Below are positions 5,201 through 43,326 of a DNA stretch of 64,000 nt, piece by piece. The position numbers and the translations under genes are program-made. Below the pieces are notes generated by a model that made no database searches, was not told the origin of the DNA, and saw only the letters and a list, made by a program, of their open reading frames with translations. Source of the DNA: an actinobacterium LLX17 (GTDB lineage Bacteria; Actinomycetota; Actinomycetes; Propionibacteriales; Nocardioidaceae); NCBI GenBank assembly GCA_000471045.1, contig KI301992.1:1438781-1502780 (forward strand), read 5' to 3'. Position 1 is the first letter of the stretch. Every line of letters starts with the position of its first letter.

Positions 5201-5641
5201 TCAGGTGAGCGGCTCGAGCACCTGTCGGATCGCGTCGGGCACCGGCGTCACGGACCGTTCTGCGCCGGTGACGTAGACGTGCACGAAGCGGCCGATCGCA
5301 GCCGGCTCGTCGGACTCACCCTGGAACAGGCCGATCTCGTAGACGACGCTCGACGTGCCCAGGCGCGTGACCCGCAGTCCCGCCTCGACGTCGCCCGGGA
5401 ATCGCAGCTCGCGCAGGAAGCGGCACCCCGTCTCGGCCACCACGCCGTAGGCGTCGAGCCGGCGGATGTCGGTGCCGGTGGCCTCGATCAGGTAGCCGTT
5501 CACCGCGGTGTCGAAGAAGGAGTAGTAGACGACGTTGTTGACGTGCCCGTAGACGTCCTCGTCCTCCCAGCGCGTCGTGATGCGCTGCAGGACCGGGAAG
5601 TCACCGCGCGTGGGCTCACGGGTCGGCTCGGACTGGCTCAT
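5201..5641 (-). CDS. Hotdog-fold acyl-CoA thioesterase (YbgC/4-HBT-like)
   Basis: 146-residue single hotdog domain. The motif RWEDEDVYGHVNNVVYYSFF matches the helix-1 signature of the 4-hydroxybenzoyl-CoA thioesterase/YbgC family, with the acidic residue before GHVNN expected at the active site. Its ATG overlaps the smc stop by 4 bases (ATGA, 5638-5641), so it is translated with smc. The stop lies 6 bases from the convergent M56 gene with no hairpin terminator between them. Substrate unknown. Confidence 0.88.
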   Translation of the reverse strand: MSQSEPTREPTRGDFPVLQRITTRWEDEDVYGHVNNVVYYSFFDTAVNGYLIEATGTDIRRLDAYGVVAETGCRFLRELRFPGDVEAGLRVTRLGTSSVVYEIGLFQGESDEPAAIGRFVHVYVTGAERSVTPVPDAIRQVLEPLT

Positions 5642-8600
5642 ACCGGCTCCTCCTCGCGCAGGCGCTGGCTGATGACGGCCGAGACGCCGTCGCCGCGCAT
5701 CGAGACGCCGTACAGCGCGTCGGCGACCTCCATCGTGCGCTTCTGGTGCGTGATGACGATGAGCTGGGAGTTGGCGCGCAGCTCCTCGTAGATCTCGAGC
5801 AGGCGCCCGAGGTTGGTGTCGTCGAGCGCCGCCTCCACCTCGTCGAGGATGTAGAACGGGCTGGGCCGCGCCTTGAACAGGGCGACCAGGAACGCCACGG
5901 CCACGAGCGAGCGCTCGCCACCGGACAGCAGCGAGAGCCGCTTGACCTTCTTGCCCGGCGGGCGGGCCTCGACGTCGATGCCGGTCGTGAGCATGTTCTG
6001 CGGGTCGGTCAGCAGGATGCGTCCCTCACCCCCGGGGAACAGGCGGCTGAAGACGTCGGCGAACTCGCGCTCCACGTCGTACCAGGCCTCGGTGAAGACC
6101 TGCTCGACCTTGGCGTCGACGTCCTCGACGATGTCCAGCAGGTCCTGGCGGGTCTTGCGAAGGTCGGCGAGCTGGTCGGACAAGAACTGGTGGCGCTCCT
6201 CGAGGGCACTGAACTCCTCGAGCGCCAGCGGGTTGACCTTGCCTAGCATCGCCAGACCGCGTTCGGCGGCCCGCAGGCGCTTGGCCTGCTGCTCGCGCAC
6301 GTAGGGCACGGGCTCGAGCGGCTCGCCCTCGTCGTCGGACTGCGGCACCGGCACGTCGGGGCCGTACTCCGCCACCAACGCCTCGACCTCCAGGCCCAGC
6401 TCCTCGCTGGCACGGGTCTGCAAGGCCTCGAGCTTCATGCGCAGCTCGGCGCGCGCCATCTCGTCGCGGTGCACCGAGTCCTTGAGCGCCTCGAGCTCCT
6501 CGGTCAGTCCGCGGAGGCGGGCGCGGACCTCGCGCAGCTCGGTCTCGCTGCCCGAGCGCGACTGCTCGATCTCGGCCCGCAGGCGGGCGGCTCGGTCGAT
6601 CGAGAGCCCAAGATGGGCCAGGACCTGGTCGGTCGCAGCGATGACGACACGGGCCGCCTCGGCCTCGCGCACCTGCCGTGCCCGGCGCTCGGCCGCCCGA
6701 CGACGGGCCTCCCGCTCGGCCTCCGCCGCCTCGAACAGCGCCGTCACCTGGCCGTCCAGCGCGCGGGCCCGCTCCTCGCTGGTGCGCAGCGCGAGCCGCG
6801 CCTCGGTCTCGGCACGGCGTGCGGTCGACGCGGCCTCGGCCAGCCCTTCGAGCTCGCTGGTGTCGGGCTCGGTCTCCGGCGCGGACTCCGCCTGCACCAA
6901 GCGGTCCTCCAGCTCGGCGAGGCCCTCCATGTCACGGTCGCGGGCCGCCTCGGCCTCGACGATCGCCTGCGCGAGCCGCTCGGCCTCACCGCGCGACGCG
7001 CGGGCCGTGGAGCCCAGCTGGCCCAGCGACTCGGCCACGGCGGCCATCTCGGCGTCGGACTCGTGCAGCCGCTCCAGCACCGCGTCGACGCGCTGCTGGG
7101 CCTCCTCGCGGCGCGTCGTGCGGGCCGCGTGCTCGAACCGGAGCCGCTCGGCCTCGTGCGCGGTGGACGCGAGATCCGCCTCGGCCTGGTCGATCGCGGC
7201 ACGGACCTCGATGAGGCTCTGCTTCGACGTGGAGCCGCCGGACGCGAAGTGGGCCCCGAGCACGTCTCCCTCGCGCGTCACGGCGGTGACGTCGGAGGCC
7301 TGGCGCACCAGGGCGCGGGCCGCCGCGAGGTCGTCGACGACGGCCATCTTGAACAGCAGGCGCCGCAGCGCCTGCTGGAGGGCGGGCGGGCCTTCCACCA
7401 CGTCGACGGCGTACGTGGCGCCGTCCGGCAGTCCGGGCCAGTCGGCGTCGTCCATCACGTCGCCCTCGAGACCGAGCAGCAGTCCGGCCCGGCCGAGGTC
7501 CTCGGCCTTGAGCTTCTCCATCGCGGTGACGGCGTTGTCGAGGTGATCGACGGCCACGGCGTCGGCGGCCGAGCCCAGAGCCGACGCGATGGCGGCCTCG
7601 AAGCCGGCCCGCACGGTGACCAGCGCAGCGACCGAGCCCAGCAGTCCGCTGAGCTCGTCGGTGGCGGCGAGCAGCGCTCCCGCGCCGTCCTTGCGCGCGA
7701 GGCCCAGCTCGAGGGCCTCCTTGCGCGCGGTGAGGGCGGCCTCCTGGCGCTCCAGCTGCTGGAGCCGGGTGGTCATCTCGGTCAGCTCGGCGTCGACGGC
7801 GGTCAGCGCGGCCTCGGCCTGCTCCAGCTCCTCGTCGAGCCCCGACTCGCCGGCGTTGAGACCGGCGATCTGCGACTCGAGGGTCGTGAACTCGCGGTGG
7901 GCGGCGTCGGCCCGCTCGGCCGCGGCGTCGCGGGCCGAGCTGAGCCGGCCGATCTCGGCGCCGGCGGCCTCGGCGCGCAGGCGGATCGCGTTGACCTGGC
8001 CGTGCAGGCGTGCGAGTCCCTCGCGCTGGTCGGCCGCGGCCCGCAGCAGGCCCGCGACACGGCGCTCCTCAGTCGTGTAGGCCTCCTCGGCCGCCGAGCG
8101 CTGGGCGATGACCTGCTCGAGCCGCTCGGCCGCCGCATCGACCTCACCGGCGAGGGTCCCGTGCTGCTCCTGGGCACGGCGGGCGTCGGCCTCCAGCTCC
8201 TCGGGGTCGCGACCCGAGCGCTGGTCGTCGGCCTCGACGGCGGCGAGCCGCACGCGCTCCGTGGCCAGTCCGGCGGTGCCACGCAGGCGCTCCCGGACAC
8301 CGGACAGCGCGTACCAGGCTTCCTGCGCGGCGGACAGCCGCGGCGAGTCGTCGCGCAGGCGGTCCTCGAGCTCGGTCTCGCTCTGCCGGGCGACTGAGAT
8401 GGCCATCTCGACGGCGTCGCGTCGTTCCTTCAGCGCCTTCTCGTCGGCGAGCTCGGTGTCGATGACCTGCTGGGCGGCCACGACGTCGTCGGCGAGCAGC
8501 CGGGCCCGCGCGTCACGGACGTCGGCCTGGATGACGGCGGCACGACGGGCGACCTCGGCCTGCCGACCCAATGGCTTGAGCTGACGACGCAGCTCGTTGA

Positions 8601-9183
8601 GCACGTCGGTCAGGCGCTGCAGGTTGCCCTGGGTCGAGTCGAGCTTGCGGAGGGCTTTCTCCTTGCGCTTGCGGTGCTTGAGGACGCCGGCGGCCTCCTC
8701 GATGAAGCCGCGGCGCTCCTCGGGGGTGGCCCGCAGGACGCTGTCGAGCTGGCCCTGCCCGACGATGACGTGCATCTCGCGCCCGATGCCGGAGTCGCTG
8801 AGCAGCTCCTGCACGTCGAGCAGGCGGCACGTGGTGCCGTTGATGGCGTACTCGGAGCCACCGTTGCGGAACATCGTCCGGCTGATGGTGACCTCGGTGT
8901 AGTCGATCGGCAGCGCGCCGTCGGTGTTGTCGATCGTGAGCACGACCTCGGCGCGGCCGAGCGGCGCGCGTCCGGCGGTGCCGGCGAAGATGACGTCCTC
9001 CATCTTGCCGCCGCGCAGCGACTTGGCGCCCTGCTCGCCCATGACCCACGAGAGGGCGTCGACGACGTTGGACTTGCCGGAGCCGTTGGGCCCGACGACG
9101 CACGTGATGCCGGGCTCGAGCTGCAGCGTCGTCGACGAGGCGAACGACTTGAAGCCCCGGAGCGTCAAGCTCTTCAGATACAC
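5638..9183 (-). CDS. smc: Chromosome segregation/condensation ATPase SMC
   Basis: 1181-residue SMC protein that, with ScpA and ScpB, loads at the origin and compacts and separates daughter chromosomes. Walker A GPNGSGKS is at residues 31-38. Two long Glu/Ala/Arg-rich coiled coils surround a hinge at roughly 500-640. The C-terminal head has LSGGERSL and the Walker B/D-loop YILDEVEAALDD. Length is normal for the family. The full frame begins at GTG 9183, but the same 25 bases are repeated just upstream (see repeat at 9162-9212), and the better Shine-Dalgarno sequence precedes the upstream copy. The usual downstream partner ftsY is replaced by a thioesterase. Confidence 0.97.
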   Translation of the reverse strand: MYLKSLTLRGFKSFASSTTLQLEPGITCVVGPNGSGKSNVVDALSWVMGEQGAKSLRGGKMEDVIFAGTAGRAPLGRAEVVLTIDNTDGALPIDYTEVTISRTMFRNGGSEYAINGTTCRLLDVQELLSDSGIGREMHVIVGQGQLDSVLRATPEERRGFIEEAAGVLKHRKRKEKALRKLDSTQGNLQRLTDVLNELRRQLKPLGRQAEVARRAAVIQADVRDARARLLADDVVAAQQVIDTELADEKALKERRDAVEMAISVARQSETELEDRLRDDSPRLSAAQEAWYALSGVRERLRGTAGLATERVRLAAVEADDQRSGRDPEELEADARRAQEQHGTLAGEVDAAAERLEQVIAQRSAAEEAYTTEERRVAGLLRAAADQREGLARLHGQVNAIRLRAEAAGAEIGRLSSARDAAAERADAAHREFTTLESQIAGLNAGESGLDEELEQAEAALTAVDAELTEMTTRLQQLERQEAALTARKEALELGLARKDGAGALLAATDELSGLLGSVAALVTVRAGFEAAIASALGSAADAVAVDHLDNAVTAMEKLKAEDLGRAGLLLGLEGDVMDDADWPGLPDGATYAVDVVEGPPALQQALRRLLFKMAVVDDLAAARALVRQASDVTAVTREGDVLGAHFASGGSTSKQSLIEVRAAIDQAEADLASTAHEAERLRFEHAARTTRREEAQQRVDAVLERLHESDAEMAAVAESLGQLGSTARASRGEAERLAQAIVEAEAARDRDMEGLAELEDRLVQAESAPETEPDTSELEGLAEAASTARRAETEARLALRTSEERARALDGQVTALFEAAEAEREARRRAAERRARQVREAEAARVVIAATDQVLAHLGLSIDRAARLRAEIEQSRSGSETELREVRARLRGLTEELEALKDSVHRDEMARAELRMKLEALQTRASEELGLEVEALVAEYGPDVPVPQSDDEGEPLEPVPYVREQQAKRLRAAERGLAMLGKVNPLALEEFSALEERHQFLSDQLADLRKTRQDLLDIVEDVDAKVEQVFTEAWYDVEREFADVFSRLFPGGEGRILLTDPQNMLTTGIDVEARPPGKKVKRLSLLSGGERSLVAVAFLVALFKARPSPFYILDEVEAALDDTNLGRLLEIYEELRANSQLIVITHQKRTMEVADALYGVSMRGDGVSAVISQRLREEEPV

Positions 9184-9212
9184 GGCTGCGTCAAGCTCTT
9201 CAGATACACGGC
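9162..9212 (-). repeat. 26-bp-period duplication of the smc start, creating an 11-codon leader ORF
   Basis: The 25 bases at 9162-9186 (smc start, encoding V/M-Y-L-K-S-L-T) recur exactly at 9188-9212. Period 26 puts the upstream GTG (9209) out of frame. It reads MYLKSLTQPCI and stops at TGA 9176-9174, 5 bases past the real smc start codon (9183-9181). GGGAG lies 5 bases before the upstream GTG, while the real start has no clear Shine-Dalgarno sequence. Confidence 0.9.
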
Positions 9213-9289
9213 GGCTCCCGGGGCGTGCAGACGGTCAGGTGGGTGGGAGCCACCCTAGGACAGAGTGACCGTCAGGTCGGTGACCGACG

Positions 9290-9487
9290 TCAGCGGACCG
9301 GCTCGAGCAGGTCGGAGGCCGACACGGCGTCGACCTGCTCACGGAGCGCCTTGAGCAGCCCGTCGTTCTCGGTCTTCAGGCGCAGCACCTCGGCCTCGAG
9401 GTCGGCGACGCGGCGTCGCAGCGACGCGGTCTGGTGCAGCTGGGCGGACGTAGGACTGCCGATGAAACCGACGAGTGCCTTGGCCAT
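9290..9487 (-). CDS. Small coiled-coil protein, function unknown
   Basis: 65 residues starting MAKALVGFIG, followed by a heptad-like helix (VADLEAEVLRLKTENDGLLK) typical of a short dimeric coiled coil. Start ATG 9487 is preceded by a strong GGAGG. A longer frame to 9826 exists but is shadow of the divergent PH-domain gene. Small actinobacterial proteins beginning MAKAL-G with a similar coil are familiar to me, with no assigned role. It stands alone between smc and the divergent PH-domain gene. Confidence 0.75.
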   Translation of the reverse strand: MAKALVGFIGSPTSAQLHQTASLRRRVADLEAEVLRLKTENDGLLKALREQVDAVSASDLLEPVR

Positions 9488-9636
9488 GGAGGTCCTCCAC
9501 GAAAGGGTCTTGGGTGACGCGAGAGATCGAATCCCGCGTCTACCAGTGTCCCACCGGCCCGCCGTTCCGGTCAAACCACCGGCGGCCCGCCGGGCAGCGC
9601 CGACAGCTCGGCGCCCCACGGTCGTACGGTGAGTCC

Positions 9637-37875: not shown

Positions 37876-38154
37876 GTGACCTACTTCGCCGTGACCTACA
37901 CCTACGGGGCCCCCGAGGCCGACCTCGCGACCCGCCGCGCCGAGCACCGCGAGTACCTCGCCGGCCTGCCCGAGCTCGTCGTGAGCGGACCCTGGGACGA
38001 CGGCCGCGGTGCGCTGCTGGTCTTCCGGGCCGAGAGCGCCGTCGCGGTCGACGGCCTCGTGACCCGCGACCCGTTCGTGGAGGCCGGCTTCGTCGCCGAC
38101 CGCGCCGTGCACGCGTGGAACCCGATCCTGGGCCCGCTCACCGAGCACCTCTGA
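37876..38154 (+). CDS. YciI-family protein
   Basis: 92 residues, a single ferredoxin-like YciI domain. The family's conserved His is in RRAEHREYL and the Asp in TRDPFVEAGF. YciI domains bind small molecules and some act as dehydrochlorinases or in oxidative chemistry; most have no known job. GTG start 37876 is 33 bases after the GT4 gene. No relation to glycan synthesis is evident; it may simply ride along. Confidence 0.85.
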   Translation: MTYFAVTYTYGAPEADLATRRAEHREYLAGLPELVVSGPWDDGRGALLVFRAESAVAVDGLVTRDPFVEAGFVADRAVHAWNPILGPLTEHL

Positions 38155-38160
38155 GCGACC

Positions 38161-38231
38161 ACAGGACCCTCCGGGCTGAGCGCTACAGGACCCTCCGGGC
38201 TGAGCGCTACAGGACCCTCCGGGCCAGGCGG
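38161..38231 (-). repeat. 24-bp tandem repeat, three copies, over the DUF6716 gene stop
   Basis: Copies start at 38161, 38185 and 38209 (unit ACAGGACCCTCCGGG plus CTGAGCGCT), the first two perfect and the third partial. On the minus strand the gene's last codons and its TAG stop lie in one copy, and the stop-containing segment is repeated downstream. Confidence 0.9.
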
Positions 38232-41007: not shown

Positions 41008-41884
41008 GTGGCAGCAGATCGGCGACGAGATCGTCGGACCCAAGCGTCCGACGTACGTCATCGGCGAGATCGGCATCAACCACAACGGAGACGTGGAGGT
41101 GGCCAAGAAGCTGATCGACGTCGCAGCGCTGGCCGGCGCCCAGGCCGTCAAGTTCCAGAAGCGGACGCCGGAGATCTCGACTCCCCCGGCCATGCGTGAC
41201 ACGGTGCGCGAGACGCCCTGGGGCGAGATGACGTACCTGGACTACCGCTACCGCGTCGAGTTCGAGACCGAGCAGTACACCGAGATCGACGAGTACGCCC
41301 GCGCCAAGGGCGTCGAGTGGTTCGCCTCCCCGTGGGACGTTCCCTCGGTCGAGTTCCTCGAGAACATGGGCGTCGCGACGCACAAGGTCGCCTCCGCCTC
41401 GGTCACCGACATCGACCTGCTGGAGGCACTGGCCGAGACCGGCAAGCCCATCATCCTGTCGACCGGCATGAGCACGCTCGAGCAGATCGACCGCGCCGTC
41501 GAGGTGCTGAGCACGGACCGCCTCGTGCTGATGCACGCCACCTCGACCTACCCCCTGCCCGCGCAGGAGGCGAACCTGCGGATGATCCACACGCTGCAGC
41601 AGCGCTACGGCGTCCCTGTGGGCTACTCGGGCCACGAGCCCGGCCTGCAGATCTCGCTGGCCGCCGTGGCCATGGGCGCGTGCGCCGTCGAGCGGCACAT
41701 CACGCTCGACCGCACGATGTGGGGCTCCGACCAGGCCGCCAGCCTGGAGCCGCACGGCTTCATGAGCCTCGTGCGCGACATCCGGATCCTCGAGATGGCG
41801 TTCGGTGACGGCGTCAAGCGCATCATGCCCGGCGAGGAGGCGCCCATGAAGCGCCTGCGCCGCGCCACGCCCTCGGTGGCGTGA
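41000..41884 (+). CDS. neuB: Nonulosonic acid (NeuB-family) synthase without SAF domain
   Basis: 294-residue TIM-barrel enzyme that condenses phosphoenolpyruvate with a hexose or its phosphate to make a 9-carbon sialic-acid-like sugar. Family blocks: VIGEIGINHNGDVEVAKKL, AVKFQKR, ILSTGMSTLEQI, VPVGYSGHEPG and the metal-site ERHITLDR. The chain ends right after the barrel (PMKRLRRATPSVA); the C-terminal antifreeze-like SAF domain (about 60 residues) found in E. coli NeuB and human NANS is absent. The SAF domain caps the active site of the partner subunit, so this enzyme may have looser substrate choice or a different dimer. Overlaps both neighbours, so it is tightly coupled. Confidence 0.88.
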   Translation: MAEWQQIGDEIVGPKRPTYVIGEIGINHNGDVEVAKKLIDVAALAGAQAVKFQKRTPEISTPPAMRDTVRETPWGEMTYLDYRYRVEFETEQYTEIDEYARAKGVEWFASPWDVPSVEFLENMGVATHKVASASVTDIDLLEALAETGKPIILSTGMSTLEQIDRAVEVLSTDRLVLMHATSTYPLPAQEANLRMIHTLQQRYGVPVGYSGHEPGLQISLAAVAMGACAVERHITLDRTMWGSDQAASLEPHGFMSLVRDIRILEMAFGDGVKRIMPGEEAPMKRLRRATPSVA

Positions 41885-43326
41885 CCTCGGCTGGATCTCG
41901 CCGCGGGACCTTTCGCCGCCCAGGGCCCGGCACCCCTGCCGGGCCTTCCGGCCGCCCAGGGCCCGGCACCCCTGCCGGGCCTTCCGGCCGCCCAGGGCCC
42001 GGCACCCCTGCCGGGGCCCGGCGGGTCCTGGTCCTCACGGACTCCGACTCGTACGTCAAGTGGGGGGCGGCACTCGCTGGTCGGGTGCCGCCCGCTTGGC
42101 ACGTCCGCTTCGTCATCGCGCGCGGGAGTGCCGAGCCGTCCGAGCGCCAGGTGCGTGAGGCGCTCGAGGGCACGGTCGTGCACCCCGAGGACGTCGAGCG
42201 GGTCGGCCTCGAGCAGGTCCGCGAGGTGCTGAGGTCGTGGCGCCCGGACGTGCTGGTGGCCGGTGCCCGCGGCCTGACCGTGCAGGCACTCATCGAGCTG
42301 GCCGTGCCGAACCGAGCCGACCGGCCGGTCATCGTCAGCGGGCTGCCCGGCATCGCGGTGCCCGTCCTGCCCTACGGACTCGGCTTCCGCCGGTCCGTCG
42401 ACCTCTTCCTGGTGCACAGCCACCGCGAGCGCCGGGCGTTCGCCGAGGCCAGCCGGTCGCTCGGCATCCCACACCGCTACGCCCTGGCGACCCTGCCGTT
42501 CCTGCCTGACACCGGCGCGCCGGGGGCGTCCGACCTTCCTCGGGACCGGATCGTCTTCGCGGCCCAGTCGCTGGTGCCCGAGAGCCGTGAGGAGCGCCGC
42601 CGCCTGCTGCGGCAGCTCGTCTCGACCGCACTGGCCCATCCGGACCTCGAGGTCGTCGTGAAGGTGCGCGGCCGGGTCGATGAGCACCAGACCCATGCCG
42701 ACCAGCACCCGTACCCCGAGCTGCTCGCCGAGCTGCGCCAGGAAGGCGTGCACGTGCCGGACAACCTCGTCGTGGAGTCCGGGCCGATGGCCACCCACCT
42801 GCGTCGCGCCGTCGGTCTCGTGACCGTCAGCTCGACCGCGATCCTGGAGGCCGTCGCCGCAGGGGTGCCGGCCCTGGCCCTGACGGACTTCGGGGTGGAG
42901 GCCCGCCAGATCAACCTCGTCTTCGCCGACAGCGGTTTGCTGCAGAGCTCGGAAGAGCTGGTCGCCGGCCGGTTCCGGCACCCCGACCCGCAGTGGCGCC
43001 AGGACAACTACTTCCATGCACCCGCCGACGACACCTGGATCCGGGACGTCGTGGAGCTGCTGGAGCAGCGCGCGACCGAGGGACTGCCGCCGTATCCCAC
43101 CGCTGAGCCGACGGTGCGGCACCGGGTGGCGATGGTGTTCTACCGTCACCAGGCCTTCCGCAGCGAGCCGAAGGGGTTGACCGGTGCCCTGTGGCACCGG
43201 GTCGTCGAACGAGCCGTCGTGGCGACGGCGCTGCGGGTCTCGCGCTCCAGCTTCGTCGTGACACGACGATTCAGGCCCGCCCGCACCGCTCCGATGGGCG
43301 ATCCGGCGGACGTCCCGACGCCGTAG
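41881..43326 (+). CDS. DUF6716 putative glycosyltransferase (second copy) with repeat-coded N-terminus
   Basis: 481 residues. After a Pro/Gly-rich head (about 1-44, PGPGTPAGPSGR repeated) comes the same fold as the gene at 38207: RRVLVLTDSDSYVKWGAAL, LVVSLAHP-type strands read here as ALAHPDLEVVVKVRGR, and RRAVGLVTVSSTAILEAVAAG. Identity between the two copies looks low but colinear. GTG 41881 overlaps the synthase TGA (GTGA). No other start codon lies before the conserved domain, so the repeats must be translated. Candidate transferase or polymerase for the CMP-activated sugar made upstream. Confidence 0.8.
   Translation: MTSAGSRRGTFRRPGPGTPAGPSGRPGPGTPAGPSGRPGPGTPAGARRVLVLTDSDSYVKWGAALAGRVPPAWHVRFVIARGSAEPSERQVREALEGTVVHPEDVERVGLEQVREVLRSWRPDVLVAGARGLTVQALIELAVPNRADRPVIVSGLPGIAVPVLPYGLGFRRSVDLFLVHSHRERRAFAEASRSLGIPHRYALATLPFLPDTGAPGASDLPRDRIVFAAQSLVPESREERRRLLRQLVSTALAHPDLEVVVKVRGRVDEHQTHADQHPYPELLAELRQEGVHVPDNLVVESGPMATHLRRAVGLVTVSSTAILEAVAAGVPALALTDFGVEARQINLVFADSGLLQSSEELVAGRFRHPDPQWRQDNYFHAPADDTWIRDVVELLEQRATEGLPPYPTAEPTVRHRVAMVFYRHQAFRSEPKGLTGALWHRVVERAVVATALRVSRSSFVVTRRFRPARTAPMGDPADVPTP
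41915..42014 (+). repeat. 36-bp in-frame hairpin minisatellite
   Basis: Two perfect 36-bp units (41915-41950, 41951-41986) and 28 bases of a third. Each encodes 12 residues and contains the hairpin CCCGGCA-CCCC-TGCCGGG. Located 31 bases after the start codon of the second DUF6716 gene. Confidence 0.92.

Follow-up and report, generated by a model that had tools for sequence, protein, structure and literature searches.

The smc gene of this actinobacterium is preceded by an exact copy of its own start. On the minus strand of the window (the whole stretch of 64,000 nucleotides analyzed here), the 25-bp unit GCCGTGTATCTGAAGAGCTTGACGC can be read directly as two exact copies separated by a single base. 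Two adjoining identical 25-mers cannot have originated by chance, and the tandem duplication reported in a preliminary description of this DNA is found with two perfect 25-nt copies precisely at 9162-9212. We consider it reasonably probable that a recent duplication specific to this lineage shifted SMC from Shine-Dalgarno (SD)-driven initiation to restart or non-SD initiation without an SD, at the expense of its output. Mutations of this kind are already known, as is coupling of this kind, and the notable part is the location, where a conserved chromosome gene begins.

Structure of the duplicated smc start

The elements of this region are listed in their minus-strand order from the upstream ORF to smc:

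9290-9490, minus strand: 66-aa ORF upstream of smc and outside the duplication, with no NCBIfam match
9252-9257, minus strand: -10 promoter element TAGGGT, the putative smc promoter, with a predicted transcription start approximately 6 nt downstream; TAGGGT or a close variant lies upstream of smc in all 43 scored congeners
9215-9219, minus strand: SD site GGGAG, 5 nt ahead of the upstream GTG, with a GGAG core and a duplex energy of -6.6 kcal/mol
9188-9212, minus strand: first (5') copy of the duplicated 25-bp unit, an exact repeat
9174-9209, minus strand: leader frame MYLKSLTQPCI, 11 codons from GTG (9209-9207) to TGA (9176-9174), as read from the sequence; translation putative
9187, minus strand: single extra base A between the copies, read directly
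9162-9186, minus strand: second (3') copy of the 25-bp unit, an exact repeat that contains the real smc start
5638-9183, minus strand: smc, 1181 aa, with its start GTG at 9183-9181 and no SD; it matches TIGR02168, and its start lines up with those of all congeners

From promoter to smc, the minus strand thus reads ...CCTAGGGTGGCTCCCACCCACCTGACCGTCTGCACGCCCCGGGAGCC / GCCGTGTATCTGAAGAGCTTGACGC / A / GCCGTGTATCTGAAGAGCTTGACGC / TCCGGGGCTTCAAG. Together with the extra base at 9187, the insertion amounts to 26 bp (period 26) and shifts the frame, so that the upstream copy is out of frame with smc and ends after 11 codons. Following this frame to the TGA yields the same 11-residue leader that the preliminary description had given, and its account of the ribosome sites holds as well: the GGGAG (9219-9215) five bases ahead of the upstream GTG is the sole SD, and the real smc start has no SD core. 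It had also placed the leader stop just past the smc start codon, which agrees with an overlap of 10 nt between the two frames (GTGTATCTGA), although the distance between start codon and stop is 4 bases (TATC) and not 5. The -10 box lies 42 nt from the upstream copy and 68 nt from the real smc start, a distance for which we rejected leaderless initiation at the second GTG.

The smc product matches TIGR02168 (SMC_prok_B) over its full length (residues 2-1175) with 935.3 bits at a cut-off of 567.35. The smc frame is intact and its branch length ordinary (0.12), scpA and scpB are found in the genome as adjacent open frames that both score above cut-off, and parB is present as an open frame, which argues that smc is not decaying. 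No alternative in-frame SMC start was found upstream, where 17 more codons are open without any ATG, GTG, or TTG. A start at the TTG of codon 6 was rejected because it would cut the conserved YLKSLTL strand, and a -1 frameshift from the leader into smc, which would give an extended SMC, was dismissed because no slippery heptamer was seen by eye. Upstream of the duplication, a C-terminus like that of the 66-aa ORF (e.g., DLLEPVR/DLAEPL) also lies ahead of smc in relatives, as judged by eye.

An inverted repeat (9142-9160 and 9218-9236) is predicted to form a hairpin in which GCCCCGGGAGC pairs with GCUCCGGGGC (smc codons 7-10) and thereby covers the SD. Predicted folding leaves the SD approximately 20% unpaired whether or not the second copy is present; for the second GTG, the value is approximately 28%. 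We rejected this mRNA hairpin as a specific explanation because accessibility hardly changes between one and two copies and is similar in relatives. As modeled, RNA folding gives no clear separation of the two starts and decides nothing.

Comparison with the smc starts of relatives

Our comparison covered all available congeneric smc starts, 44 besides that of the window (L018 by eye only, with energies scored for the other 43). Checked for the duplication, all 44 have a single copy at the smc start. We further searched for TGTAYCTSAAG occurring twice, i.e., for two smc-like starts 6-36 nt apart, with a pattern that covers only NTG-TAY-CTS-AAG starts and in a scan that may lack entries for the window's own species: of the 295 family genomes, only the window's genome matched, and among 84,980 species genomes there were matches at six places, all in repetitive non-smc sequence and none in smc. 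A search for a second strain of the species found none, the closest smc start being 89.6% identical. The duplication is probably specific to this lineage and, as we infer, recent, though, with copies of only 25 bp, their being identical says little about recency.

An SD core (AGGAG or GGAG) lies 4-8 nt ahead of the smc start in 33 of the 44 congeners, and their -10 box is approximately 30-62 nt away. The remaining 11 (L026-L029, L041, L042, and L044-L048) have a -10 box TAGGGT or TAGGCT that ends 6 nt ahead of the GTG, which is the arrangement of a leaderless mRNA. From these sequences, the translation mode of smc looks to have switched between leaderless and SD-led within one genus. Every congener keeps one placement or the other at smc, implying selection for one of them, and the window's smc start alone has neither. 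Its anti-SD energy of -2.1 kcal/mol is also the weakest, compared to -4.3 to -8.7 kcal/mol for the 43 scored congeners and -6.6 kcal/mol for the upstream copy. The spacing of 5 nt between GGGAG and the upstream GTG equals that at the real smc starts of the nearest relatives (L031, L033, L035, and L037). Since L031 and L035 share a near-identical upstream stretch (GGAGCCGCC-GTG), the SD of the window and its spacing are the inherited ones.

Translation of smc behind the leader frame

In the reading that we favor, a short tandem duplication would have copied the first smc codons along with the immediately preceding bases, without taking in the complete SD, and the inherited SD and promoter would now serve the upstream copy. 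Having made MYLKSLTQPCI, the ribosomes that this SD recruits would terminate 7 nt downstream of the first base of the real GTG, and a minority of them would restart at this smc GTG. An SD ahead of the downstream start is usual in termination-reinitiation and not strictly required. Weak initiation that needs no SD may contribute some SMC as well. Judging from this arrangement, the leader is probably translated, reinitiation probably occurs, and the net effect is probably less SMC, so that the protein is likely made but at a reduced level. The effect on SMC could nevertheless be small because non-SD initiation is common in prokaryotes. A lower level would probably be tolerated, since Actinomycetota seem able to live with little SMC or none. 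In C. glutamicum, smc can be dispensed with and its deletion has no growth phenotype (PMC11898615), so that a low SMC level may be tolerated.

Termination-reinitiation at overlapping genes (PMC6728339, PMC10666635) resembles the smc start in its same-strand frames, its upstream ribosome site, and, more loosely, its stop and start within a few bases of each other. Coupled genes typically lie at -8 to +6 nt, and reinitiation is most often seen at -4, -1, and -8 nt (PMC10666635). Unlike these pairs, the frames studied here overlap by 10 nt instead of 4, 1, or 8, the downstream start has no SD, and the upstream frame, an 11-mer that seems to have arisen accidentally as a copy of sequence in the downstream gene, is not conserved. 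For the stop-restart coupling proposed in the preliminary description, the leader stop overlaps the smc start and may be close enough to it, but the overlap is just beyond the common range. Of five E. coli gene pairs, three lost 60-90% of their reinitiation when the SD was removed, and one lost it entirely (PMC6728339). Among actinobacteria, reinitiation from an upstream ORF to a gene was demonstrated in mycobacteria, where a short upstream frame drives the downstream gene (PMC11260477). The uPPE2-PPE2 pair of Mycobacterium tuberculosis is similar in having a short upstream frame and a ribosome landing site (putative for the window); unlike the predicted coupling at smc, it has a 4-nt AUGA overlap. 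The pair lies under a riboswitch (PMC11260477).

The geometry at the smc start permits coupling, and genes in mycobacteria are controlled by translated short upstream frames (PMC11260477), as would be expected of a tuned regulatory leader in which translating the 11-mer serves to sense a condition and to set the SMC level via stop-restart coupling. We nevertheless regard this explanation as very improbable: the peptide merely repeats the SMC N-terminus with four residues added and has no codon run, the arrangement is not conserved in the 44 congeners, the restart has no SD, and an overlap of -10 is beyond the common range (PMC10666635). For the same reasons of conservation, missing restart SD, and overlap, only one half of the earlier suggestion of a "tuned or recently damaged" start holds up: the sequences are better read as a damaged start, caused by a mildly damaging and probably recent mutation. 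Another way to make SMC would be direct SD-independent initiation at the second GTG, with the leader irrelevant and the SMC level little changed. Many genes have no SD (the topic of PMC5397173), and the intact smc and scpAB suggest that SMC is still used; but the placement kept at smc in every congener implies selection, and the competing SD-led start 26 nt upstream would load ribosomes that cover the second start, making this option quite unlikely.

A phase-variable switch would have slippage between the 25-bp copies alternate smc between SD-driven (one copy) and weak translation (two copies). Adjacent perfect direct repeats of approximately 25 bp can recombine or slip in either direction; the copies at smc are of this kind and of a size able to do so, and the one- and two-copy states differ exactly in SD-start coupling. 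However, there are two copies only, the extra base between them would also have to go, the absence of the repeat from all relatives gives no sign of selection for switching, and SMC is not a typical contingency gene, so that we give this scenario hardly any credence. The duplication itself resembles short tandem (slippage) duplications that shift a gene start in its exact adjacent copies, a period that is not a multiple of three, and its restriction to one lineage, but differs from the usual ones by the one-base filler at the junction. To our knowledge, smc and other conserved chromosome genes seldom carry such a duplication in fixed form at their start, and a search of the literature on slippage at start codons returned nothing relevant. 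A more far-reaching version of the damaged-start reading takes the duplication as real and fixed and holds that this species has no source of SMC other than SD-less termination-reinitiation, starting from an 11-codon frame that smc acquired by accident as a copy of its own start. This newborn upstream ORF might be reversible by slippage and could thus cause cell-to-cell variation in SMC. As a whole, we find this version doubtful.

A possible artefact and other tandem repeats

If the duplication were an assembly or sequencing artefact, smc would have only one start on the true chromosome, and a mis-join or an unresolved overlap would account for the second copy. There is a single assembly, the duplication is in no relative, the change strikes the start of a conserved gene where it should usually be harmful, and the lone extra base at the junction would fit a bad join. 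However, the 3.0-Mb genome is assembled in one contig with 99.99% completeness, and any read type easily spans a perfect repeat of 25 bp. Similar exact tandem duplications with a period of 19-60 were lacking in a 400-kb sample of this genome (twenty 20-kb stretches, N runs disregarded), which held only two of 18 bp, suggesting that the assembly is not duplication-prone; a systematic assembly error thus finds no support in the sample. We therefore consider an artefact unlikely. A congener sampled likewise has a few such tandem duplications.

If real and fixed, the duplication would be a natural experiment in which a conserved chromosome-organizing gene survives the loss of its ribosome site, as well as an example of an upstream ORF arising in one mutational step. 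Together with the SD-led and leaderless smc genes of sister species, it would let one test the amount of SMC that an actinobacterium needs. If it is an artefact or silent, the duplication amounts to an annotation note only.

Two other tandem arrays in the window are near-exact, with units of 24 and 36 bp that are both multiples of three. The 24-bp repeat (38151-38224, three copies, 96%) lies where a 92-aa plus-strand ORF (end 38154) and a minus-strand ORF (end 38207) terminate, or between them. The perfect 36-bp repeat (41915-42015, 2.8 copies) gives PGPGTPAGPSGR repeats in a glycosyltransferase-like ORF on the plus strand (41881-43326), at its N-terminus.
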